Source: Gammaproteobacteria bacterium
GTDB taxonomy: Bacteria > Pseudomonadota > Gammaproteobacteria > Steroidobacterales > PWYM01
DNA: 57,007 nt
Direction: 5' to 3'
Assembly (NCBI GenBank): GCA_003567475.1
Contig: PWZL01000031.1
Location: 1 to 57,007 of the forward strand
Shown here: positions 25,931 to 37,738 of the stretch, piece after piece
Layout of the letters: each line of letters starts with the position of its first letter
Numbering within the stretch: position 1 is the first letter of the stretch
Position numbers and translations under genes: made by a program
Notes under the pieces: model-generated
Told to the model about the DNA's origin: nothing
What the model saw: only the letters and a program-made list of their open reading frames with translations
Databases searched by the model: none

Positions 25931-26365
25931 TCAACCGACGCGATAGGTCGCCAGGTGAATGCTGGTCTCGGTGGTGCTCACGGCGGGCAGGCTGCGCAGC
26001 CGTTCGAGCAGCCGGGAAAGCGCTGCGAGGTCGGCGGTGCGGACCTCGGCGAGCAGGTCCCAGCGCCCGTTGGTGTCGTGCACGGCCTGGACGTCCGGTT
26101 CCGCCAGGAGTCGGGTGATCACGCTGCGGGTCTGGGGCCCGCTGATGGCGATGCTCACCCAGGCAAGAATGCCGCTGTCGGCATCATCGGCACGCAGCCT
26201 GAGGGTGTAGCCTGCGATCACGCCGCCGGCCTCGAGCCTGGCGATGCGGTTGGTGACCGTGCCACGGGCCACCCCGAGTGCTTTGGCCAGGGCGGCGATG
26301 CTGCTGCGGGCATTCTTGCGCAGCAGTTCGAGCAGTTGACGGTCGAGTTCATCCAATCCTGTCAT
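25931..26365 (-). CDS. Lrp/AsnC-family transcriptional regulator
   Basis: DNA-binding regulator of amino-acid metabolism, 144 residues. The N-terminal winged HTH reads LDELDRQLLELLRKNARSSIA and GVARGTVTNRIARLEAGGVI. The C-terminal RAM/ACT-like ligand domain includes GRWDLLAEVRTADLAAL. ATG 26365 gives the common start MTGLDELDRQ; a TTG at 26374 would add three residues. No Shine-Dalgarno is visible for either. It is divergent from ornithine cyclodeaminase across an AT-rich gap with inverted repeats, so it probably controls ocd-putA and itself. Confidence 0.9.
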   Translation of the reverse strand: MTGLDELDRQLLELLRKNARSSIAALAKALGVARGTVTNRIARLEAGGVIAGYTLRLRADDADSGILAWVSIAISGPQTRSVITRLLAEPDVQAVHDTNGRWDLLAEVRTADLAALSRLLERLRSLPAVSTTETSIHLATYRVG

Positions 26366-26371
26366 TTTGAT

Positions 26372-26424
26372 CAATCATTCTAATTAGATTGGCAATAGAT
26401 TACCGAAATCACCATCAGATTGCC
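26372..26424. promoter_or_regulatory. probable Lrp/AsnC operator in the regulator-ocd gap
   Basis: This stretch is markedly AT-rich against a GC-rich background. It contains the palindrome TCTAATTAGA (26379-26388), flanked by the arms CAATC (26372-26376) and GATTG (26387-26391). It also has a second inverted repeat GGCAAT (26391-26396) / ATTGCC (26419-26424). Multiple phased sites fit Lrp-type oligomer binding. Confidence 0.55.
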
Positions 26425-26470
26425 TATTTACATTACCAAGGCCGTGTCCGAGACTGAATGGCCTGATGAC

Positions 26471-26479
26471 AAGGAGGTG
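26471..26479 (+). promoter_or_regulatory. strong ribosome binding site deciding the ocd start
   Basis: AAGGAGGTG is a near-perfect anti-16S match. It lies 4-6 nt before GTG 26484 and downstream of the in-frame ATG at 26466, so GTG 26484 must be the start. The ATG at 26482 is out of frame and stops at once. Confidence 0.8.
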
Positions 26480-26483
26480 TGAT

Positions 26484-27581
26484 GTGAGCGTATCCGTCGA
26501 TTCTCGTTTTCTATCCCCGGCCGACGTTGCCAGCATTCTGCGCGCGTTGGGCATGGAGACCTGCCTGCGCCGGCTGACAGCCGGGCTGGAGCGGGATTTC
26601 CTGCGCTGGAGCGAGTTCGACAAGTCGGCGCGCACCGCCAGCCATTCGCCGGTCGGTGTGATCGAGTTGATGCCGGTGGCCGATGCACAGCACTACGCGT
26701 TCAAGTACGTCAACGGTCATCCGCAGAACCCGGTCCAGGGGTTGCCCACCGTGATGGCGTTCGGCGTGCTCTCACGCGTGGCCACCGGCGCCCCGGAGCT
26801 CGTCTCCGAGCTGACTCTGACCACTGCACTACGCACCGCAGCCGTCTCGGCGCTGGCCGCCCGCGCGCTGGCGCGGCCGGACAGCCGCTCGATGGCGGTG
26901 ATCGGCAACGGCGCGCAGGCCGAGTTCCAGATCCTGGCTTTTGCCCACCTGCTTGGCATTCGCGAGTTCCGTCTCTACGACGTCGACCGTGCGGCCACCG
27001 GTAAGACGCTATCCAATCTCGCCGACAGCGGCTTTGAATTCGTGGCCTGCCGCAATGCGCGGGAGGCTGTGAGTGGTGCCGACATCGTCACCACCGCCAC
27101 AGCCGACAAGGCCAATGCCACGATTCTCACAGGGGACATGATCGAACCCGGCATGCACATCAACGCGATCGGTGGCGATTGTCCTGGCAAGACCGAGCTG
27201 GCTTGCGAAGTGCTCGCGCGCGCCTCGGTATTCGTCGAGTATGAGCCGCAGACGCGGATCGAGGGTGAGCTCCAGCAGATGCCCGAAGACTTCCAGGTCA
27301 CCGAGCTGTGGCGGGTGCTGGCCGGCGAGACCGAGGGCCGCCGTCGCGCTGACGAAGTCACGGTGTTCGACTCGGTTGGCTTCGCGCTGGAAGACTTCTC
27401 GGCGCTGAAGTTCCTGCGAGATGCCGCCACTGAACTGGGGCTGGGCAAGCCGCTCTCGCTGGTACCCGACATGAGCGATCCGAAAGATCTGTTCGGATTG
27501 ATCGGTGCAGAAGCGTCGGCCGCCGCGACGGCCGCCGCGGTGTCCCGCGATTTACAGGGACGTCTCGCGCGGGTGTCATGA
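26484..27581 (+). CDS. ornithine cyclodeaminase
   Basis: Converts L-ornithine to L-proline and ammonia using bound NAD. The 365-residue protein closely follows the Pseudomonas putida-type enzyme: SHSPVGVIELMPVAD, YAFKYVNGHP (substrate site), TTALRTAAVSALAARALARP, the dinucleotide motif VIGNGAQAEFQ, NAIGGDCPGKTEL with the catalytic Asp, and VFVEYEPQTRIEGE. It starts from GTG behind a strong ribosome site. putA follows 74 nt later, so ornithine would be taken to proline and then glutamate. The mu-crystallin/EutC alternative is less likely given length and the GGDCPGKTEL block. Confidence 0.92.
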   Translation: MSVSVDSRFLSPADVASILRALGMETCLRRLTAGLERDFLRWSEFDKSARTASHSPVGVIELMPVADAQHYAFKYVNGHPQNPVQGLPTVMAFGVLSRVATGAPELVSELTLTTALRTAAVSALAARALARPDSRSMAVIGNGAQAEFQILAFAHLLGIREFRLYDVDRAATGKTLSNLADSGFEFVACRNAREAVSGADIVTTATADKANATILTGDMIEPGMHINAIGGDCPGKTELACEVLARASVFVEYEPQTRIEGELQQMPEDFQVTELWRVLAGETEGRRRADEVTVFDSVGFALEDFSALKFLRDAATELGLGKPLSLVPDMSDPKDLFGLIGAEASAAATAAAVSRDLQGRLARVS

Positions 27582-27655
27582 GCCGATAGCCTCAGCCAGC
27601 CCCGGTAGTCAGTAGTCCTGATCGCCAGTCAATGTGCCAGCAGGAGGGCGTGAGC

Positions 27656-30600
27656 ATGTCCGCAGTCGAATCCCCGGCGGGATCAAGCCACGGCGAAGCC
27701 TTGCGCGTACCGCCGTCATGGTCACCGGCCGAACGTATCAATCGTGACTGGCTGGCTGATGAGACCAGGCTGGTCAGCGCGCTCGTCGAGCGCTACCGGC
27801 TGGACACGCGCACCCGCGAGGCGATCCATGCCCGCGCGACAAGCCTTGTGGAAGGCGTTCGCCAGCACCAGGCGAACAAGGGCGGCATTGATGCTTTTCT
27901 GCAGGAGTACGATCTCTCCTCAGAGGAGGGGATTGTTCTGATGTGCCTGGCGGAGGCGCTGCTGCGGATTCCGGACGATGACACGGCCGATCGGCTGATC
28001 GCCGACAAGCTCGCCTCGGGGCATTGGGAAGAGCACCTCGGAACGAGCGAATCATGGTTCGTCAACGCGTCGACCTGGGGGCTGATGCTGACCGGTCGGC
28101 TGATGCGTCCCAGGACGGAGGTGCAGAAAAATCCGCAACGAGTGCTGCAGAACTTCGCCGCGCGTGCAGGCGAACCTGTGCTGCGGGCGGCCATGCGCCA
28201 GGCGATGCGCATCATGGGGCACCAGTTCGTCATGGGCCGCGACATCCCTGAGGCATTGAAACGTGCCGCGCAGCGGGACAATCGCCGCTGGCGTTATTCT
28301 TTTGACATGCTCGGCGAGGCTGCGCTGACCGACGCCGATGCCGAGCGCTATATGGAGGCCTACGCGCGGGCCATCGACCACACGGCACAGGGTACGGATG
28401 ACGGCCAGCCGATGGCGACGCGCCACAGCGTATCGGTCAAGCTCTCGGCGCTCACCGCCCGCTACGAGTTCCTGCACGCCGAGGCGGCGATCGAGGAACT
28501 GGCGGCGCGGCTGCTGGCGCTCGCGCAGCGTGCCCAGTCGGCGGGCATTGCGCTCACAGTGGACGCTGAGGAGGCGGAGCGCCTGGAACTGTCCCTGCGA
28601 ATCTTCGAGCGCGTGTATCGCGATGCCTCGATCGCAGGCTGGGGCGGGCTGGGGCTGGCGGTGCAGGCCTATCAGAAGCGCGCGCCCGAGGTCATTGCCT
28701 GGCTCGCAGGGCTGTCGCAGGAGGTCGGTGACACCCTTTTCGTGCGCCTGGTCAAGGGTGCCTACTGGGATACCGAGATCAAAAGAGCCCAGGAACAGGG
28801 CCTGCCCGGCTATCCCGTATACACGCGCAAGGCCGCAACCGATCTGGCCTACCTGGTGTGTGCCCGGGAGATGTTGCGTGCGCCGGCGACGCTTTACCCG
28901 CAGTTCGCCACACATAATGCCCACACGGTGGCCAGTATCATGGCCCTGGCAGGTGACCGCGACTTCGAGTTTCAGCGCCTGCATGGCATGGGCGAAGAGC
29001 TGTATGCCGAAGTCGCCCGTCTGGAGGGTGCGCCGGCCTGCCGGGTGTATGCACCGGTTGGGCGGCACCAGGATCTGTTGCCGTACCTGGTGCGTCGCCT
29101 GCTCGAGAACGGTGCGAACACGTCGTTCGTGAACCGTATCGTCGATGCCGACGCGCCGATCGACGAGATCATCGCAGATCCGCTGGAAAGCCTTGGCCGG
29201 GTTAGCCCGTATCCCCACCCCCGCATCCCGCTGCCGGCGAAACTCTACGGCGATACCCGGCCCAACTCCGTTGGGCTGAACCTCGCTGACAGCACGGTGC
29301 TGCGGCAGCTCGGCGCCGCCATGGGGCCACGGTCCGGCATCCGCGCGTATCCGTTGATCGACGGGCGAGCCCGCGAGGGAGGTGGTCATGCTTCGGTGAA
29401 CCCTGCACGGTTGGCCGAGACGGTGGGCTATGCGGTGTGGGCGGATGCCGCGATGGCAGATGAGGCGGTCGCTGTGGCGCAAGCGTACCGGGTGCGCTGG
29501 GATGGCCTCGGCGCGGCCGAGCGGGCGGGGCGGTTACGCCGCGCCGCGGCGCTGTTCGAGGACCACCGCGCGGAGTTGCTCGCCTTGTGCCTGCGCGAAG
29601 CGGGCAAGACGCTGCGCGATGCCGTGGCCGAGCTTCGCGAGGCGGTGGATTTTCTGCATTACTACGCCGACCAGGCAGAGCAGGGACTGGCGCGTGCTCA
29701 GGTGATGCCAGGGCCCACCGGCGAGCGCAACGAGCTGTCCCTGCATGGGCGCGGTGTGTTCGTCTGTATCAGTCCGTGGAATTTCCCACTGGCGATCTTC
29801 ACCGGCCAGGTGGCGGCTGCGCTGGTGGCCGGCAATACGGTGATTGCCAAGCCTGCCGAGCAGACGCCACTGATCGCCGCACGGGCCGTGACCCTGTTGC
29901 ACGAGGCGGGCATTCCCGCAGCGGCGCTGCCGCTGTTGCCGGGGGAGGGCGCAGTGGTCGGCGCGGCCCTGGTGGCCGATGCGCGTGTGGCAGGCGTGGC
30001 TTTCACCGGCTCGACCGAGACGGCCTGGCGGATCAACCGCAGCCTCGCGGCTCGTGAAGGCGCGATCGCCACACTGATTGCCGAGACGGGCGGGCAGAAC
30101 GCCATGATCGTCGACAGCTCCGCGCTGCCCGAACAGGTGGTCATTGACGTGCTGCAGTCGGCTTTCGGCAGTGCGGGCCAGCGCTGCTCGGCACTGCGGG
30201 TCCTCTACCTGCAGGAAGACATCGCCGACCGTGTACTCGGCCTGCTTGCCGGCGCCATGCGCCGGTTGGTGATTGGCGACCCCGCCGATCTGCGGACGGA
30301 TGTTGGCCCGGTCATCGATGAGACCGCTCGGGACATGCTGGAGGCGCATGTGGCGCACATCGGTGTCGCTGGGCGGATCGTATATCGCTGCGAACTCCCC
30401 GAAGTCTGCGCAGCAGGCAGCTTTGTGGCGCCGGTGGCTGCGGAAATCGACTCCATCGCACAGCTCGAACGCGAAGTCTTCGGCCCGGTGCTGCACATCG
30501 TGCGCTATGGTGCCCGTGAGCTTGACCGCGTCATCGACGACATCAATGCGACCGGCTACGGGCTGACTCTTGGCATCCATAGCCGGGTGGATCTGACTGC

Positions 30601-30826
30601 CCGGCACATCGCCGCCAGGGCGCATGTGGGCAACACCTACATCAATCGCAACCAGGTCGGCGCGGTGGTTGGCGTGCAGCCGTTCGGCGGCCAGGGGCTT
30701 TCCGGCACTGGCCCGAAAGCCGGCGGTCCGCATTATCTCTCGCGGTTCGCCTACGAGCGGGTGGTGACTGTGAACACCGCCGCGGTGGGCGGGAATGCGA
30801 GCCTGCTGGCGATGTCGGACGACTGA
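27656..30826 (+). CDS. putA: bifunctional proline dehydrogenase / L-glutamate gamma-semialdehyde dehydrogenase
   Basis: Oxidises proline to glutamate in two steps, with FAD and then NAD. The 1056 residues hold the PRODH barrel (about 170-470; LVKGAYWDTEIKRAQ, YTRKAATDLAYL, ENGANTSFVNRIV) and the aldehyde dehydrogenase (about 540-1040; SPWNFPLAIFTGQVAAALVA, IAETGGQNAMIV, catalytic Cys in GSAGQRCSALR). There is no N-terminal ribbon-helix-helix, so unlike the E. coli protein it should not repress transcription itself, which fits the nearby Lrp-type regulator. ATG 27656 follows AGGAGG; the ORF opens at 27632. Confidence 0.96.
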   Translation: MSAVESPAGSSHGEALRVPPSWSPAERINRDWLADETRLVSALVERYRLDTRTREAIHARATSLVEGVRQHQANKGGIDAFLQEYDLSSEEGIVLMCLAEALLRIPDDDTADRLIADKLASGHWEEHLGTSESWFVNASTWGLMLTGRLMRPRTEVQKNPQRVLQNFAARAGEPVLRAAMRQAMRIMGHQFVMGRDIPEALKRAAQRDNRRWRYSFDMLGEAALTDADAERYMEAYARAIDHTAQGTDDGQPMATRHSVSVKLSALTARYEFLHAEAAIEELAARLLALAQRAQSAGIALTVDAEEAERLELSLRIFERVYRDASIAGWGGLGLAVQAYQKRAPEVIAWLAGLSQEVGDTLFVRLVKGAYWDTEIKRAQEQGLPGYPVYTRKAATDLAYLVCAREMLRAPATLYPQFATHNAHTVASIMALAGDRDFEFQRLHGMGEELYAEVARLEGAPACRVYAPVGRHQDLLPYLVRRLLENGANTSFVNRIVDADAPIDEIIADPLESLGRVSPYPHPRIPLPAKLYGDTRPNSVGLNLADSTVLRQLGAAMGPRSGIRAYPLIDGRAREGGGHASVNPARLAETVGYAVWADAAMADEAVAVAQAYRVRWDGLGAAERAGRLRRAAALFEDHRAELLALCLREAGKTLRDAVAELREAVDFLHYYADQAEQGLARAQVMPGPTGERNELSLHGRGVFVCISPWNFPLAIFTGQVAAALVAGNTVIAKPAEQTPLIAARAVTLLHEAGIPAAALPLLPGEGAVVGAALVADARVAGVAFTGSTETAWRINRSLAAREGAIATLIAETGGQNAMIVDSSALPEQVVIDVLQSAFGSAGQRCSALRVLYLQEDIADRVLGLLAGAMRRLVIGDPADLRTDVGPVIDETARDMLEAHVAHIGVAGRIVYRCELPEVCAAGSFVAPVAAEIDSIAQLEREVFGPVLHIVRYGARELDRVIDDINATGYGLTLGIHSRVDLTARHIAARAHVGNTYINRNQVGAVVGVQPFGGQGLSGTGPKAGGPHYLSRFAYERVVTVNTAAVGGNASLLAMSDD

Positions 30827-30856
30827 CCGTTTCTGGCAGGCCGGGCGGATGTCGCT

Positions 30857-31459
30857 TCAGGCCGGCTTGCAGAAACTCGCCATCTGGGTCGAACTCCCCA
30901 GCACGCGGTCGCGGGGGCCGATGTCGGAGAACTGCACGCGGTAGCAGTAATGATCGGCGACGCCTTGCGCCCAGGCCCGGAACTGGCGCCGCGTCCACTC
31001 GAAGTGGTGGCCGGGGTGTCGCCGCTCGCCGGGCGCCATGCCATGGAGCGGGTTGTACTCCCGATTGGGTGTAGTCACGAGGACCAGGCTTGGCGAGAGT
31101 TCGCCGAAGACGCTTCGCACGACTTTCGACAGCCGGCCAGGATGAACGTGCTCGATAGTCTCCAGCATGACTGCGGCGTCCACCCGCGCAGGATGCCAGT
31201 CGGTCTCCTCGAACGAGCCAAGACAGACGTCGAGCCTGGCATTCCGATTGAATAGATCGAGTCCCAGCGCCCCGCGGGCCTTCGCGAGTGCACGGGCATC
31301 GATGTCTATGCCCAGCAGACGTCGGAATTGCGAGTAGCCACGCAACGTCTGGAGCAACTCGCCAGGTCCGCAGCCAAGATCGACAATATGGCGGGCGCCA
31401 TTGGCCAGCAGTGCCCGCACGACCGCATCGAGTCGTGCGCGGTGCAGCGCGGTGGCCAC
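30857..31459 (-). CDS. Hen1-type RNA 3'-terminal ribose 2'-O-methyltransferase core
   Basis: Predicted SAM- and metal-dependent methyltransferase that caps RNA 3' ends. The 200 residues correspond to the catalytic half of bacterial Hen1. SAM motif VDLGCGPGELL lies near residue 27. The Hen1 metal site LETIEHVHPGRL supplies Glu, Glu and His, and HHFEWTRRQFRAWA supplies a further His, with TTPNREYN between. The N-terminal domain of full-length bacterial Hen1 (about 240 residues) is absent, and no Pnkp repair ligase gene lies in the window. The start is uncertain: GTG 31459 lacks a clear ribosome site and the frame stays open upstream to about 31561 without an ATG. Confidence 0.8.
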   Translation of the reverse strand: MATALHRARLDAVVRALLANGARHIVDLGCGPGELLQTLRGYSQFRRLLGIDIDARALAKARGALGLDLFNRNARLDVCLGSFEETDWHPARVDAAVMLETIEHVHPGRLSKVVRSVFGELSPSLVLVTTPNREYNPLHGMAPGERRHPGHHFEWTRRQFRAWAQGVADHYCYRVQFSDIGPRDRVLGSSTQMASFCKPA

Positions 31460-31583
31460 GCTCAGAAGTGACAGCAGGGGCGGGTCATCACGCGCGGTAT
31501 TATGCCGCAGAACACGCGATAATCGCGATTCCGGACGCCACCTTACGGTTTGGAAAGCCAGTCATTACCGCGAGTTGACGCAT

Positions 31584-32426
31584 ATGGTCGAGATCAGCCA
31601 AGTCAATGTTTTTCCCGTGAAGTCGCTCCGGGGTATCGCACTTCAGAGCACCACCCTGGGGGTTCGCGGTCTGGCCTTCGATCGACACTGGATGATCACC
31701 GATATCTCGGGTCGGTTCGTGACCCAGCGTGAACTGCAGACCATGGCGACCATCGCGGTGCGCCTGTCGGCACAGGCGCTCGTGCTGGAGCATGAGTCAG
31801 CGGTACCGCTGGTGCTCAGCCTTGCGCCCGCGGATGGGCGTCAGGTCGAGGTGACGGTGTGGAACGATCGCTGCGTCGCGACGGACGAGGGTGAAGCCGC
31901 CTCTCGATGGTTGACCAATGTGCTTGGGATGTGGCGGGGAGGGCCTCTGAGACTCGTGCGGTTCGCTGCGAGCCATCGCAGACCAGTGGACGCTCACGAC
32001 CTCCGCGGCGAGCAGTCACATACCGCTTTCGCCGACGGTTTTCCGTTCCTGGTCACCTCCGAGAGTTCACTCGCCGCGCTGAACAGCCGACTGGCGGCTC
32101 AGGGTATTCAGCCTGTCACCATGGATCGCTTTCGCCCCAACATCGTGCTGCGCGGGTTGGCGCCTTTTGAAGAAGATCGCCTCGTTAGCCTGCAGTACAC
32201 TGATGGCCGCTATGCGCTCGAACTGCGAAAACCGTGCAGTCGTTGCGCGATCACGTCCATCGACCAGGTCACCGGCGAGGTGGTCGTGTCCCGCGAGCCA
32301 CTGCGCACACTGATGGCGATGAAAACCCAACCCGAGCTCCCGGGCGCCTATTTTGGTCAGAATGCCAGCCTGCTCGCAGGCGAAGGCGAGTCCATCACCG
32401 TTGGCGACACCCTTATCGCGAGGTAA
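31584..32426 (+). CDS. MOSC-domain protein (YcbX-like)
   Basis: Likely molybdenum-cofactor-binding oxidoreductase component, as in N-hydroxylated-compound reduction by YcbX. The 280 residues include an N-terminal MOSC beta-barrel domain (VNVFPVKSLRGIALQSTTLG ... FDRHWMI) and a C-terminal MOSC domain (RFRPNIVLRGLAPFEED, with the cofactor-binding Cys in KPCSRCAITSID). It lacks the C-terminal 2Fe-2S ferredoxin domain of E. coli YcbX, so it would need a partner reductase. ATG 31584 is taken as start; the open frame to 31401 runs antisense to the Hen1 gene. Its stop is 6 nt before the ASCH gene. Confidence 0.88.
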   Translation: MVEISQVNVFPVKSLRGIALQSTTLGVRGLAFDRHWMITDISGRFVTQRELQTMATIAVRLSAQALVLEHESAVPLVLSLAPADGRQVEVTVWNDRCVATDEGEAASRWLTNVLGMWRGGPLRLVRFAASHRRPVDAHDLRGEQSHTAFADGFPFLVTSESSLAALNSRLAAQGIQPVTMDRFRPNIVLRGLAPFEEDRLVSLQYTDGRYALELRKPCSRCAITSIDQVTGEVVVSREPLRTLMAMKTQPELPGAYFGQNASLLAGEGESITVGDTLIAR

Positions 32427-32432
32427 TCCACC

Positions 32433-32960
32433 GTGCACCTGTCCCCCCGCGTCTCCCCGCCCTCAGCCGCTGCAGTGGAGGCCTTTCTCGACGCCGCTCG
32501 CAACAGCCGGCCCGATCTCGATCTCACCGACAATTGGGAAGTGCGCTGGATCGGCCTCGATGAAGAGACCACCTACCGGATCTTCGACCTGATCCGCGCC
32601 GGCGACAAGACCGGCACCTTCACCCTGCCGTGGGTTGTGGAGCGCACTGAGCGCCAGGTGCCCTATGCGGGGCTGTGCCTGGTGCTGGTCGATATGCACG
32701 GGCGTCCGACGCTGCTGGTCCGCCTGCGCGAAGTGCGTGAGGCGGTATTCGGCGAGGTGACCGCAGCCCATACAGCTGTCGATGGCTCACCGGTGCGCGA
32801 CCCGGTCGTCTGGAAAGCGCTGCACACCCGGTTCTGGAACGACCTGCTGGCGCCCTACGGACTGGCCGTGACCGAGCAGATGCCGTTCTGGATCGAGCCA
32901 TTTGAGCTGGTCTATGACGCGGACGCGCCTCAGGCGCCCCGAACGCGCCCAATCGAGTGA
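32433..32960 (+). CDS. ASCH-domain protein
   Basis: Small cytoplasmic protein with an ASCH (PUA-like) fold, 175 residues. The segment around IFDLIRAGDKTGTFTLPWVVE, GLCLVLVDMHGRPTLLVRLREV and VWKALHTRFWNDLL matches the ASCH pattern, including the Gly-Asp-Lys-Thr turn. Family members bind RNA or hydrolyse modified nucleosides such as N4-acetylcytidine; which applies here is unknown. GTG 32433 is preceded by GAGG. It follows the MOSC gene by 6 nt. Confidence 0.75.
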   Translation: MHLSPRVSPPSAAAVEAFLDAARNSRPDLDLTDNWEVRWIGLDEETTYRIFDLIRAGDKTGTFTLPWVVERTERQVPYAGLCLVLVDMHGRPTLLVRLREVREAVFGEVTAAHTAVDGSPVRDPVVWKALHTRFWNDLLAPYGLAVTEQMPFWIEPFELVYDADAPQAPRTRPIE

Positions 32961-33005
32961 CCCGCGACGGGTCATGCGCCCGCTGGCGTCATACCATTCA
33001 GTGGG

Positions 33006-33389
33006 TCAGTTCAGGGCGCGGGCGATCGCAGTCAGCGCCAGACCTGCGAGCACCATCCAGGTCCCCAGCGTCCCGATGAAGCGCCCGAGGCTGGTACCGT
33101 CGGACCGTGACAGGCCCAATGCGTGCAGCAGCCTGCAGATGACCAGCGTGGCTCCGGCGGCGTGCAGCCACACGGCAGGCAGACCATCAGCCTCCAGCAG
33201 CCCCATCACTATCAGGCCCAGGGGCGCGTACTCGAGGAGGTTGCCATGCACCCGAATCGCACGCTGGAGTTCCGGGTGACCGCCGTCACCCAGGCCAACG
33301 CGCAGGCGCCGACGGAAACGGACAACATTCCACGACAGGGCCAGCAGCAACAGGACCAGCATGCCCGCATATAGCAGTGTGATCGACAT
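33006..33389 (-). CDS. MAPEG-family membrane protein
   Basis: Four-helix membrane protein of 127 residues related to microsomal glutathione S-transferases. It shows HPELQRAIRVHGNLLEYAPLGL, the MAPEG signature with Arg, His, Asn and Glu in the glutathione-binding helix, and hydrophobic helices at about 3-20, 52-68, 73-92 and 107-124. The substrate is unknown; a detoxifying thioether role is plausible. It lies 21 nt after the DUF1330 gene in the pepN-led minus-strand run. Confidence 0.85.
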   Translation of the reverse strand: MSITLLYAGMLVLLLLALSWNVVRFRRRLRVGLGDGGHPELQRAIRVHGNLLEYAPLGLIVMGLLEADGLPAVWLHAAGATLVICRLLHALGLSRSDGTSLGRFIGTLGTWMVLAGLALTAIARALN

Positions 33390-33410
33390 CTCGAGCCTCC
33401 CGTGTGTCGG

Positions 33411-33851
33411 TCAGGAGAAAGTGCGCCCGTCCGTCTCGAGCGGCTCAAAGCGGATCAGGCGGCTGGTCAGCACCGCCGCCTGTCGGTGTACCACGGCAGA
33501 CTTGTACTCGAGATCCGTCACCATGGCGAGAAAGGCTGCCGCGCTCGGGTAGGCGGCGATGAATGCCGCATCCCAGGTCTTGTCCTGCGGGCCGATGACC
33601 ATCGCTTCCATGCGCCCGCGCCAGACCACCTCGCCGCCGACCCGGGCGAGGACCGGGGCACTCGCGCGACCGTACTCCCGGTACGCTTCGGCGCCGCTCA
33701 GCCCTCGGGTCGCGTCGGGGTGATCGGTTGGGTAGTCGGCGCGACCGCGGAATTGCAACAGATTCAGCATATGAATCGGGGTGTCCCGCGGTAAGGACTT
33801 GAAGACTGCGAAACTCTCGCGGGTGGGGTCTACGTAGCGCTCGTCGCTCAT
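33411..33851 (-). CDS. DUF1330-family protein
   Basis: 146-residue cytoplasmic protein with a ferredoxin-like dimeric alpha/beta barrel fold as in DUF1330. Visible blocks are PIHMLNLLQFRGRADYP, AYREYGRASAPVLARVGGEV and WDAAFIAAYPSAAAFLAMVTD. Function is not established for the family. Its start overlaps the pepN stop by 4 nt (ATGA), so it is translationally coupled to pepN. Confidence 0.82.
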   Translation of the reverse strand: MSDERYVDPTRESFAVFKSLPRDTPIHMLNLLQFRGRADYPTDHPDATRGLSGAEAYREYGRASAPVLARVGGEVVWRGRMEAMVIGPQDKTWDAAFIAAYPSAAAFLAMVTDLEYKSAVVHRQAAVLTSRLIRFEPLETDGRTFS

Positions 33852-36508
33852 GCGTCATCCTCCGCGGCGGCGAGTGCGCGACTCACCACCTCATAGGTGT
33901 CCCTGGAGAGCTCCGTGCGTGCCTGGATGCGCTCAAGCGCCGCGCGAGCATGCTCCCGGCGTCCAGCATCAAACTGACGCCAGCGGTCGAAGGCACGGGC
34001 GAGGCGGGCGGCGACCTGGGCATTCAGAGCATCCAGCGCGAGCACCTGCTCGGCTGCGAAGACATAACCTGACCCATCGGCCGCGTGGAAGCGGACGTGG
34101 TTCCCGTGGCAGAAACTGCCGATGAGCGCGCGCACCTTGTTCGGGTTGCGCAGGTCGAACGCGGGGTGTGCGAGCAGCGAGCGGACCGTTTGCAGGGTGG
34201 TCGGCAGGCGCGACATCGCCTGGACGGAAAACCACTTATCCACCACCAGCGGCTCGTCCTGCCAGCGGGCGTAGAAGCGCTCAAGGGCCGTCTCACGTTC
34301 AGAACACGCACTGTTGGCCAGCGCGGTCAATGCCGCCATTGCATCGGTCATGTTGTCAGCGTCCTCGAGCTGCGCCAGGCAGGTCTGTCGGATGCTGAGA
34401 CTGTCGAGTTCCATCAGGTAGGCCAGCGCGACGTTGCGCAAGCTGCGCTGGCCAGCCGCCGCCGGTGCAGGCGAATAGGGGCCCGCGACGCGGAACTGTT
34501 CGTAGGCGGCCTGCCAAGCCGGGTGCAGTGTTGTGGCAAGTTGCTGTCGCAAGGCCAGGCGGACCTGGAAGATCGCCTCCGGGTCAACCTCGTCGAGCTG
34601 CTCGGCGATGTAAGCTGCCGAGGGCAGAGTCAGGGCCTCGGCGGCGAGGGCGGGATCATCGGTGGCGTCATGCAGAACCTGCCGGCAGGCCTCGATGTAC
34701 GCGTCTGAAAACACCAGTGGCCGGTCCGCCTGCCAGTTCTCGATGCCGCGCAGAAGTTCGCGCATCGCCAGCCGCTGGCCGGCCTCCCAGCGGTTGAATG
34801 CATCGCTGTCATGCGCCATGAGATGCGCGAGCTCGGCGTCGGAAGTGTCCTGCCGGAGGATGACCGGCGCGGAGAAACCCCGCAGCAGTGAGGCCACTGG
34901 CGGGCTGGCAATGTCTTCGAAAACAAACCGCTGCTCCGGCTCGCGCAGCGACAGCACGCGGGTGTGACCGGAAGCGGCGGTCTCGCCCTGGAGGCGCAGC
35001 GGCAGGTCGTCGCCCTGGGCGTTCAGCAACCCCATCGCCACCGGGATATGGAACGGCAGCTTTTCCGCTTGCCCCGGGGTGGGCGGACAGTGCTGGCGCA
35101 GTGTCAGCGTGCAGCGCCGGGTATCGGGGTCGTGGGCAAGCTCGGCTTCCACCACTGGTGTGCCGGCCTGGACATACCAGCGACGAAATTGGGTGAGGTC
35201 TACGCCCGAGGCGTCCTGCATGGCCGTGGCGAAATCCTCCACGCACACCGCCTGGCCATCGTGGCGCTCGAAGTAGAGGTCCATGCCGGCGCGGAAGCGC
35301 TCCGCTCCGAGCAATGTGTGAATCATCCTGACCACCTCGGCGCCCTTGTTGTACACGGTGGCGGTGTAGAAATTGCTGATCTCGATATAGGCCTCGGGGC
35401 GCACGGGATGCGCCATGGGGCCGGCGTCTTCCGGGAACTGGGCGGCACGCAGCAGCCGCACTTCCTGAATGCGCTGGAGTGCGCCTGAATAGCGGTCTTC
35501 GCCGTATTGCTGATCGCGGAAGACGGTGAGGCCTTCCTTGAGGCTCAGCTGAAACCAGTCACGGCAGGTGACGCGATTACCTGTCCAGTTGTGGAAATAC
35601 TCGTGGGCCACCACCCGATCGAGCATCTGGTAATCCTGATCGGTGGCCGTGTCGGGCCGCGCCAGCACATACCGTGTGTTGAAAATATTGAGTCCCTTGT
35701 TTTCCATCGCGCCCATGTTGAAGTCGCCCACGGCGACGATCATGTACTGGTCGAGATCGAGCTCGAGGCCGTAGACTTCTTCGTCCCAGCGCATGGCGGA
35801 CTTCAGTGACTCGAGGGCGAAGTCGCTCTGGTTTAGCTTGCCCGGTTCGACATACACCCCCAGTCGCACCGTACGACCCGACCGCGTAACGAAATCGCTT
35901 TCCAGGCAGTCGAGTTTCGCCGCAACCATCGCGAACAGGTAAGCCGGCTTGGGAAACGGATCGACCCAGCGCGCCCAGTGTCGCCCGCCGGTTTCCTCGC
36001 CGCTGGCCTCAAGGTTGCCGTTGGACAACAGCAGAGGAAAGCGTTCGCGGCAGGCGCGGATCGTGGTGGTATAACGCGACATCACGTCGGGGCGGTCGAG
36101 AAAATAGGTGATCCGGCGGAAGCCCTCGGCTTCGCACTGCGTAAAGTAGCCGTTTCGGGAGGCGTAGAGCCCCATCAGCTGGGAATTGGCTTCGGGCTGG
36201 ATACGCACCCGTGTCTGCAGCGTGAAGCGCTGCGGGAGACCACGCACGACGAGCCGCGTGGGCTCGACACTGTAGCGCTCGGCGGCAAGCGGCTCGCCAT
36301 CGAGTGAGAGCGCAACAAGCTCCAGACCATCGCCGTCGAGCACGAGGTCGCCGTCCGTGTCCGCGTCTGGATGTCGGCCCATAGTGAGGTCTGCGGTGAC
36401 CTCGGTCGCCTCATCGTGCAGATGGAACTCCAGGCGCACCTCATCGATGAGAAAGGCTGGCGGAGTGTAGTCCTTGAGAAAAATGGTTTGCGGGGTCGCA
36501 TCCAGCAT
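33848..36508 (-). CDS. pepN: aminopeptidase N
   Basis: M1-family zinc aminopeptidase that removes N-terminal residues from peptides. The 886 residues are close to the gammaproteobacterial length. The exopeptidase motif is GAMEN (NMGAMENKGLNIF) and the zinc site is HEYFH-x18-E (VVAHEYFHNWTGNRVT ... LKEGLTVFRDQQ). The C-terminal helical cone is complete. Three downstream minus-strand genes follow; DUF1330 overlaps it by 4 nt. The 78-bp upstream gap separates it from the sixA-associated gene. Confidence 0.96.
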   Translation of the reverse strand: MLDATPQTIFLKDYTPPAFLIDEVRLEFHLHDEATEVTADLTMGRHPDADTDGDLVLDGDGLELVALSLDGEPLAAERYSVEPTRLVVRGLPQRFTLQTRVRIQPEANSQLMGLYASRNGYFTQCEAEGFRRITYFLDRPDVMSRYTTTIRACRERFPLLLSNGNLEASGEETGGRHWARWVDPFPKPAYLFAMVAAKLDCLESDFVTRSGRTVRLGVYVEPGKLNQSDFALESLKSAMRWDEEVYGLELDLDQYMIVAVGDFNMGAMENKGLNIFNTRYVLARPDTATDQDYQMLDRVVAHEYFHNWTGNRVTCRDWFQLSLKEGLTVFRDQQYGEDRYSGALQRIQEVRLLRAAQFPEDAGPMAHPVRPEAYIEISNFYTATVYNKGAEVVRMIHTLLGAERFRAGMDLYFERHDGQAVCVEDFATAMQDASGVDLTQFRRWYVQAGTPVVEAELAHDPDTRRCTLTLRQHCPPTPGQAEKLPFHIPVAMGLLNAQGDDLPLRLQGETAASGHTRVLSLREPEQRFVFEDIASPPVASLLRGFSAPVILRQDTSDAELAHLMAHDSDAFNRWEAGQRLAMRELLRGIENWQADRPLVFSDAYIEACRQVLHDATDDPALAAEALTLPSAAYIAEQLDEVDPEAIFQVRLALRQQLATTLHPAWQAAYEQFRVAGPYSPAPAAAGQRSLRNVALAYLMELDSLSIRQTCLAQLEDADNMTDAMAALTALANSACSERETALERFYARWQDEPLVVDKWFSVQAMSRLPTTLQTVRSLLAHPAFDLRNPNKVRALIGSFCHGNHVRFHAADGSGYVFAAEQVLALDALNAQVAARLARAFDRWRQFDAGRREHARAALERIQARTELSRDTYEVVSRALAAAEDDA

Positions 36509-36586
36509 GATCGAGATTCCGTTCAGGCAGGCTCAAACGCGTAATGCTACACCCATTGTCGCGAGGTGCGAGCGCCGGGCCGGGGG

Positions 36587-37738
36587 TCAACGCATCGTGC
36601 CCTCGGGCACCGGGCCGAAGTACATTTCGAAGCCGATGCCGATACCCGGGTTGATCCGGCGGCGTTCTTCCAGCGTTTCGCGCGGCCAGGTGGCGCTGGC
36701 GGAGACTTCGAGGAAAAGCCAGCGGCGGGCGATGCGCTGGCGATAGCGGGTCTCGACACCGTAATTCTGCAGGCGGACGTCGGCGCTGGTCTCGCCCTCG
36801 GACAGCACGGAATAGACCATGGCTCGGCGTTCGCTCAGGTTGTGGAACAGACTCAGGCTACTGCCCCATTCAAGGCCTTCGGTGTCGCCCGCGAGAGTAC
36901 CGGTATTGTTCCAGCGAACCATGAAATCCTCGCCGATCATGCGGTCGAGCAACAGTTCGGTGGTTGAGCCGAAACCGCGGCTGTCGCGCCAGAACAGCGT
37001 TTCGCGCAGGCGCAGCAGGGTGTGATCGCCGATCCCGAAGTGGTGGCGGTAGCCCGCTTTCACGTACGGGTCGAGCGGAGTACGCAAGCGGATACCCGCG
37101 CCCACGTCAAAACCATTCTCGAAGGCGCCGCGCTGTGCGTACACCAGGCCGACCAGCCACTCGTCATCGTCGATCCGTCGGAAGCTCGGCGGCACCGGTG
37201 TGCCGGTGCTTGAGGCGCTCTCCTCGGTGATGTCCTGACGGTCACCGCGGCCGACGACCAGTGCCAGGCGCTCCTGCATGGCCGGCAGCACGAAGCGGGC
37301 GCGCAAACGCACCCGGGTGTCGAGGCCGTCGCGCCGATCCCACCCTGGAAACACACCAAAGCGACCATAGCTGTCGCCGGAGTCCAGATCGTATCGCGCT
37401 GTGCCGAACAGGCCATCAAACCAGTACGCGCTGCCGCAGACGCCGTAATACACGCCCCGCTGGAGCTGGTCCAGCCAGTCGCCGCCCTCCGAGCCGGGCT
37501 CATCGCAGACGCTGGCCACCCCGGCGCGGCGCGGGCGGGCGGGTGAGGGCTCTGGTTCGGCGGTGGCCTCCGACTCGGTCGCCGCCACCTCGATGCTGTC
37601 GTCCAGACTGCCGGCAGCGGGGGGGGGCGCGGGTTCGGCGGCCGCGGCCTGCATCAGCACGCCCAGCAACAGGAGGGAGAGGACCGCGACGGGTTGCCGC
37701 AGGCGCGCCGGGGATGGAGAGCGCCTAGGCGCCGACAC
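36587..37738 (-). CDS. predicted outer-membrane beta-barrel protein of unknown function
   Basis: I do not recognise a named family. The 383-residue product has a signal peptide (PVAVLSLLLLGVLMQAAAAEP), a low-complexity linker rich in Glu, Ala and Pro, and then about 300 residues with alternating polar/aromatic strands (for example YVKAGYRHHFGIGDHTLLRL and WLFLEVSASATW). It has a Cys pair (VASVCDEP and GVCGSAYW). The pattern fits a monomeric outer-membrane barrel. GTG 37738 is chosen because it puts the signal peptide near the start; it overlaps the sixA 3' end by 14 nt. The open frame extends to 37864 inside sixA. Confidence 0.7.
   Translation of the reverse strand: MSAPRRSPSPARLRQPVAVLSLLLLGVLMQAAAAEPAPPPAAGSLDDSIEVAATESEATAEPEPSPARPRRAGVASVCDEPGSEGGDWLDQLQRGVYYGVCGSAYWFDGLFGTARYDLDSGDSYGRFGVFPGWDRRDGLDTRVRLRARFVLPAMQERLALVVGRGDRQDITEESASSTGTPVPPSFRRIDDDEWLVGLVYAQRGAFENGFDVGAGIRLRTPLDPYVKAGYRHHFGIGDHTLLRLRETLFWRDSRGFGSTTELLLDRMIGEDFMVRWNNTGTLAGDTEGLEWGSSLSLFHNLSERRAMVYSVLSEGETSADVRLQNYGVETRYRQRIARRWLFLEVSASATWPRETLEERRRINPGIGIGFEMYFGPVPEGTMR

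Follow-up and report, generated by a model that had tools for sequence, protein, structure and literature searches.

A Pseudomonadota lineage of stand-alone Hen1 domains without a recognised RNA-repair partner, predicted to methylate RNA 3' ends

The window, a stretch of 57,007 nt from a gammaproteobacterial genome (contig PWZL01000031.1), encodes a small protein that is a member of the Hen1 catalytic family. This protein belongs to a widespread Pseudomonadota lineage of stand-alone Hen1 domains that has no recognised repair partner among the families tested. From homology, it is likely to be an autonomous Mn2+-dependent 3'-terminal RNA 2'-O-methyltransferase that works like animal HENMT1. In the known bacterial repair complex, the ligase is switched on by the N-terminal domain of Hen1, and the RNA is methylated before it is sealed, which makes the repaired molecule resistant to the ribotoxin that had cut it (PMC4411300). 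According to the summary in PMC10781085, bacterial Hen1 accepts RNA of 12–24 nt with a preference for a 3' G, and Mn2+ is the preferred metal.

The gene was located as follows:

30857..31459, minus strand: hen1, stand-alone Hen1 methyltransferase domain of 200 aa with a GTG start (from TIGR04074, PDB, AlphaFold2 and dN/dS)

The product was matched by the NCBIfam model TIGR04074 (bacter_Hen1) with E=2e-56 and 191.4 bits, residues 3–197 aligning to model columns 264–461. The model has 462 positions and an equivalog cut-off of 340 bits, the level expected of a full-length protein, which the window Hen1 does not reach. Because the match is confined to columns 264–461, we conclude that the C-terminal methyltransferase domain alone is present, which bears out the initial annotation in its remark that an N-terminal domain of ~240 residues is missing. 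Neither this ligase-activating domain (Hen1_L, PF12623; Pfam and TIGR04074) nor the second type of N-terminal domain (Hen1_N, PF22032; Pfam) was found in the protein. Generic Pfam methyltransferase models gave 43 bits at best, far below the Hen1 model. A sequence search of the PDB ranked the Hen1 methyltransferase domains 3jwh and 3jwj (both E=2.5e-39), 3jwg (1e-35) and 3jwi first, followed by human HENMT1 and plant HEN1. The AlphaFold2 model, for which 29 relatives served as input, had a mean pLDDT of 92.8. When it was used for a fold search of the PDB, the 13 best matches were all Hen1 chains (bacterial, plant, human and Pnkp1/Rnl/Hen1), and other methyltransferases ranked lower. The TM score with 3jwh was 0.84, and the Hen1 fold was matched over the whole length; 3jwg and 3jwh are Hen1-C domains that were themselves crystallised in isolation. 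The four metal ligands (E100, E103, H104 and H151) and the motifs named in the initial annotation are all in place, and its description of a Hen1-like methyltransferase holds at a level of similarity well above chance.

Translation of hen1 starts at the GTG at position 31459. The 34 codons upstream of this GTG are open in frame and contain no ATG, GTG or TTG. In a sister species (87% identical; G003, locus L019), an in-frame stop lies three codons upstream of the equivalent GTG. The start codons of about two dozen further relatives coincide exactly with this GTG in position, and stops were found one to six codons upstream of the equivalent start in other relatives. Given the stop in the sister and the shared position of the relatives' start codons, the gene extends over 30857–31459 and not over 30857–31561, and the open stretch from 31459 up to 31561 is non-coding. 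The frame had been correctly described as open to about 31561 without an ATG; the start, then left uncertain, is now placed at the GTG. Between the window and the sister, 77 of the 107 differences in hen1 fall at third codon positions and dN/dS is 0.09, from which we conclude that hen1 is a functional gene under purifying selection.

A contig scan and whole-genome searches identified relatives of hen1 in Nitrincola, Rhodoferax, Thiobacillus, Nitrosomonas, Marinobacter, Lacimicrobium and Roseovarius. Almost all of these are ~200 aa long, and the hosts of the 39 stand-alone proteins are alpha-, beta- and gammaproteobacteria. Among 398 sampled genomes of the phylum, six carried full-length Hen1 and five, including the window genome, stand-alone Hen1, so that the two forms are of similar frequency in this sample. 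The 39 stand-alone proteins formed a single clade in a maximum-likelihood tree (support 100/99), opposite 14 full-length sequences and one stand-alone myxococcal sequence (support 100/99). The latter (L056:7623–8594, Myxococcota) falls with the full-length clade and carries Val at residue 101; here the stand-alone form arose independently.

Within its own genus, hen1 was detected in three of five genomes. A member of the stand-alone clade is carried by a plasmid of Comamonas sp. C11 (WP_256497024.1). The patchiness in the genus, this plasmid member and the mixing of beta- and gammaproteobacteria in the lineage make horizontal transfer of stand-alone hen1 likely. Compared with the window Hen1, the Comamonas protein has a slightly longer N-terminus, and its gene has other neighbours (dksA-like, cfa and release factor 3). 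Its RefSeq name is just 'methyltransferase domain-containing protein'. All five stand-alone proteins that we scored against TIGR04074 fell below 340 bits; since the NCBI Hen1 model demands full length, the stand-alone family is hidden in databases.

We rejected a phage origin, as no stand-alone members were found in the phage and viral collections and the Hen1 proteins found there are longer, with Val at position 101. A phage Hen1 of this type has an N-domain by Pfam, and in three other viral sequences the frame is open for 268–288 residues upstream of the methyltransferase domain. Vibrio phage vB_VpaM_sm033 (L082:3263–5443) encodes a 726-aa polypeptide annotated solely as polynucleotide kinase, in which we found a Hen1 N-domain, a methyltransferase domain, a P-loop kinase and a PNKP-type phosphatase. 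A viral contig (L103:2158–4806) has an open frame of 883 codons with a full-length Hen1-like part and a C-terminal part in which a nucleotidyltransferase/ligase-like EYKYMGSR motif was seen by eye, a possible Hen1–ligase fusion.

The active site was compared in an alignment of 53 Hen1 sequences, 39 stand-alone and 14 full-length; a row for ornithine cyclodeaminase (OCD) was out of register and was left out. The motifs of the window Hen1 are:

31361..31384, minus strand: SAM-binding motif I, VDLGCGPG, residues 26–33 (D27, G29 and G31 invariant)
31148..31162, minus strand: first metal-binding motif, E100-T101-I-E103-H104, with lineage-specific T101 (E100, E103 and H104 invariant, 53/53)
30989..31021, minus strand: second metal-site motif, R147-H-P-G-H151-H-F-E-W-T-R157, in which H151 is the fourth ligand (from the alignment)

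All four metal ligands were invariant (53/53), and the SAM motif residues as well as F153, E154, W155 and R157 did not vary either. The ligands follow the ExxEH...H pattern of human HENMT1, whose Glu132, Glu135, His136 and His181 (PMC10781085) correspond to E100, E103, H104 and H151. Residue 101, directly after ligand E100, is Thr in 39/39 stand-alone and Val in 14/14 full-length proteins and is the sole column of the alignment that cleanly splits the two groups. Val was also found here in the myxococcal stand-alone outlier and in four viral or phage Hen1 proteins. Lying beside a metal ligand, T101 could reflect a changed metal or substrate preference. One might go further and suppose that the lineage methylates a different cis-diol or RNA position, T101 marking the change, as the clean split at this residue and the separate, well-supported branch of the stand-alone proteins would allow. 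However, all other active-site motifs are invariant between the two groups, the Hen1 fold extends along the entire protein and a single side-chain change is little to set against this. We therefore consider such a change of substrate unlikely.

In full-length hen1 loci, pnkp lies directly downstream of hen1 in 7/7 annotated plasmid loci; an eighth locus had no annotation and was left out of this count. No pnkp remnant was recognised beside the window hen1, and no linkage to a ligase or a kinase/phosphatase was seen in stand-alone hen1 loci. The Pnkp ligase domain (PF16542) was detected in 0/36 genomes without full-length Hen1 and Hen1_L in 0/40 genomes, the window genome being included in both sets; both domains were present in the full-length control G371. 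The initial annotation had proposed to look for Pnkp, Rnl and RtcB: the window genome contains no PNKP ligase domain, no Rnl2-type RNA ligase (PF09414) and no RtcB, which is absent from the whole genus, nor does it encode a second Hen1, full-length or other. Matches to TIGR04075 (Pnkp) in this genome were partial, below cut-off and of kinase/phosphatase type, and matches of like kind occurred in 9 of 14 control genomes in the same search. Elsewhere in the lineage RtcB is sporadic (full-length in four stand-alone genomes, a fragment in a fifth), and PF09414 was found in three stand-alone genomes. The window genome is 98.4% complete, and several of the named genomes are draft assemblies or MAGs for which completeness is not stated; a gene may possibly have been missed in one genome for this reason, but hardly in the whole set. 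These results show that the stand-alone Hen1 lineage is without a recognised repair partner among the tested families. The initial annotation had offered either an orphan enzyme or part of a split system encoded elsewhere. The former stands, the tested partners being absent from the genome itself. A split system is unlikely because the ligase and N-domain families are absent across ~40 genomes of the lineage, and we rejected a Hen1 with its N-domain encoded elsewhere on the absence of Hen1_L from 40 genomes.

The enzyme might nevertheless serve repair in trans, methylating ribotoxin-cut RNA 3' ends that an unlinked ligase or end-healing enzyme would seal. It has the same catalytic domain as the repair Hen1, and the few lineage genomes with RtcB or a PF09414 ligase would offer such an enzyme. 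RtcB, however, acts on 3'-phosphate or cyclic-phosphate ends, whereas Hen1 needs a 2',3'-diol. Moreover, the window genome has none of the three sealing candidates, stand-alone loci lack any visible linkage to a ligase or kinase/phosphatase, and none of the stand-alone genomes encodes the N-domain that activates the ligase (PMC4411300), all of which makes this role unlikely. That hen1 is the decaying remnant of a full-length hen1–pnkp cassette, deprived of its N-terminal half and its partner, would explain the missing N-domain and the patchy occurrence in the genus, but it is contradicted by purifying selection (dN/dS 0.09) and by the monophyly of a clade with a common start position across three classes, finds no recognised pnkp remnant next to hen1 and is scarcely credible.

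Turning to the neighbourhood, putA (plus strand) is convergent with hen1, the two genes ending 30 bp apart, and MOSC-ASCH (plus strand) is divergent and starts 127 bp upstream. The initial annotation had raised the possibility of a small RNA-processing locus with the ASCH-domain gene, which our comparison does not support. We rejected ASCH/MOSC as partners of Hen1, since they are encoded on the opposite strand and the adjacency recurs only in the 87%-identical sister G003; it was found neither in G004 of the same genus nor at other Hen1 loci. Elsewhere, stand-alone hen1 has neighbours encoding an Na/H antiporter, a response regulator, an RND pump, an aldose epimerase, a UvrD-like helicase, a macro domain, a LysR protein and an amidase. 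No recurrent partner family emerged among the loci examined, at which ORFs were called mechanically and include some spurious ones. In genome G128, the gene of a macro-domain protein (PF01661, E=1.5e-40; L022:4540–5271) immediately precedes a stand-alone hen1 and shares its strand.

A set of UvrD-type helicase, aldose epimerase and N-extended adenylate kinase, encoded beside hen1 at some loci (L025, L027, L031), was considered and rejected as a general partner. The N-extended kinase is also encoded near hen1 on the Comamonas plasmid (L081):

L031:8630..9670, minus strand: N-extended adenylate kinase near hen1
L025:576..1097, minus strand: N-extended adenylate kinase near hen1
L081:12771..13817, plus strand: N-extended adenylate kinase near hen1

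Its extension of ~125 aa belongs to kinases that are 77–82% identical among a Nitrincola contig, G341 and the Comamonas plasmid. The extension was found in 3/39 Hen1 genomes versus 0/41 others; because it occurs in so few of them and is absent from the window genome, the kinase is not a general partner. A defence-island context was likewise rejected, the PADLOC matches among 99 neighbour ORFs being mostly UvrD helicases and generic matches; the window Hen1 itself matched mad2 solely through a methyltransferase domain. Rfam gave no match within 26000–36600.

Between hen1 and its divergent neighbour, one block is conserved:

31499..31530, minus strand: intergenic block upstream of hen1, candidate promoter/operator, kept between the window and G003

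This block is identical or nearly so in G003, whereas the remaining DNA between the two genes diverges. It contains a perfect 13-bp palindrome, CGCGATTATCGCG, at 31515–31527 and a CATAAT box at 31499–31504. Taken by itself, the palindrome is near chance level at one mismatch, and a scan for the sigma-70 consensus yielded nothing.

Compared with the bacterial repair Hen1 of Clostridium thermocellum and Anabaena (3jwg/3jwh), to which it is 35–38% identical in the structural alignment, the window Hen1 has the same catalytic methyltransferase domain, with identical metal ligands and SAM motif. It differs in lacking the N-domain, an adjoining pnkp and a Pnkp ligase in the genome, in having T101 for Val and in belonging to a separate clade. 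Pnkp1-Rnl-Hen1 of Capnocytophaga gingivalis (4xrp) is alike in methyltransferase fold but more distant (22–23% identity), and its system differs from the window genome, which lacks the Rnl2-type ligase. Animal HENMT1 and plant HEN1 (4xcx, 5wy0, 3htx) have the same four metal ligands and act without a ligase (PMC10781085), as we propose for the window Hen1. The window protein is nevertheless closer to bacterial Hen1 (138 bits) than to HENMT1 and HEN1 (95 and 78 bits). Piwi (PF02171, Argonaute) was absent from all 41 genomes searched, the window genome included, unlike in the HENMT1-type small-RNA pathway. We therefore rejected Argonaute-linked small-RNA methylation, and the part that the enzyme plays with small RNAs in eukaryotes cannot be carried over.

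By homology with the Hen1-C domain, the retained chemistry uses SAM and a divalent metal and acts on RNA whose 3' end bears a 2',3'-diol. We infer the reaction and the metal of the window Hen1 from this homology, which strongly supports the predicted reaction. Both hydroxyls of the terminal RNA nucleotide, 2'-OH and 3'-OH, would be held by the metal in such a way that the 2'-OH is methylated. Without the ligase-activating N-domain and a recognised cognate ligase in the genome, Hen1 would take no part in cut-and-seal repair. Instead, it would cap free 3'-OH ends of RNA and so protect them against trimming, tailing, ligation and cyclisation. Our guess is that the effect is to protect or mark a subset of 3'-OH RNAs, e.g. 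tRNA fragments or small RNAs.

The Hen1 catalytic family is already known, but the monophyletic Pseudomonadota lineage without partners and with a diagnostic Thr appears to be new. We found no mention of it in the open-access literature searched, although an earlier mention is possible. RNA repair accounts for the bacterial Hen1 proteins characterised so far, but a conserved lineage that has dropped the ligase switch and has no recognised repair partner cannot work in that way. Bacteria therefore probably have another use for 3'-terminal ribose methylation, and periodate-resistant 3' ends would be expected in culturable Marinobacter or Roseovarius and would be lost upon loss of hen1. More tentatively, these proteins may form an ancient, ligase-independent lineage that places a 2'-O-methyl group on the 3' ends of native RNAs to stabilise or mark them. 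The lineage would then be the bacterial equivalent of what HEN1 does to small RNAs in eukaryotes, but with neither Argonaute nor RNA repair involved.
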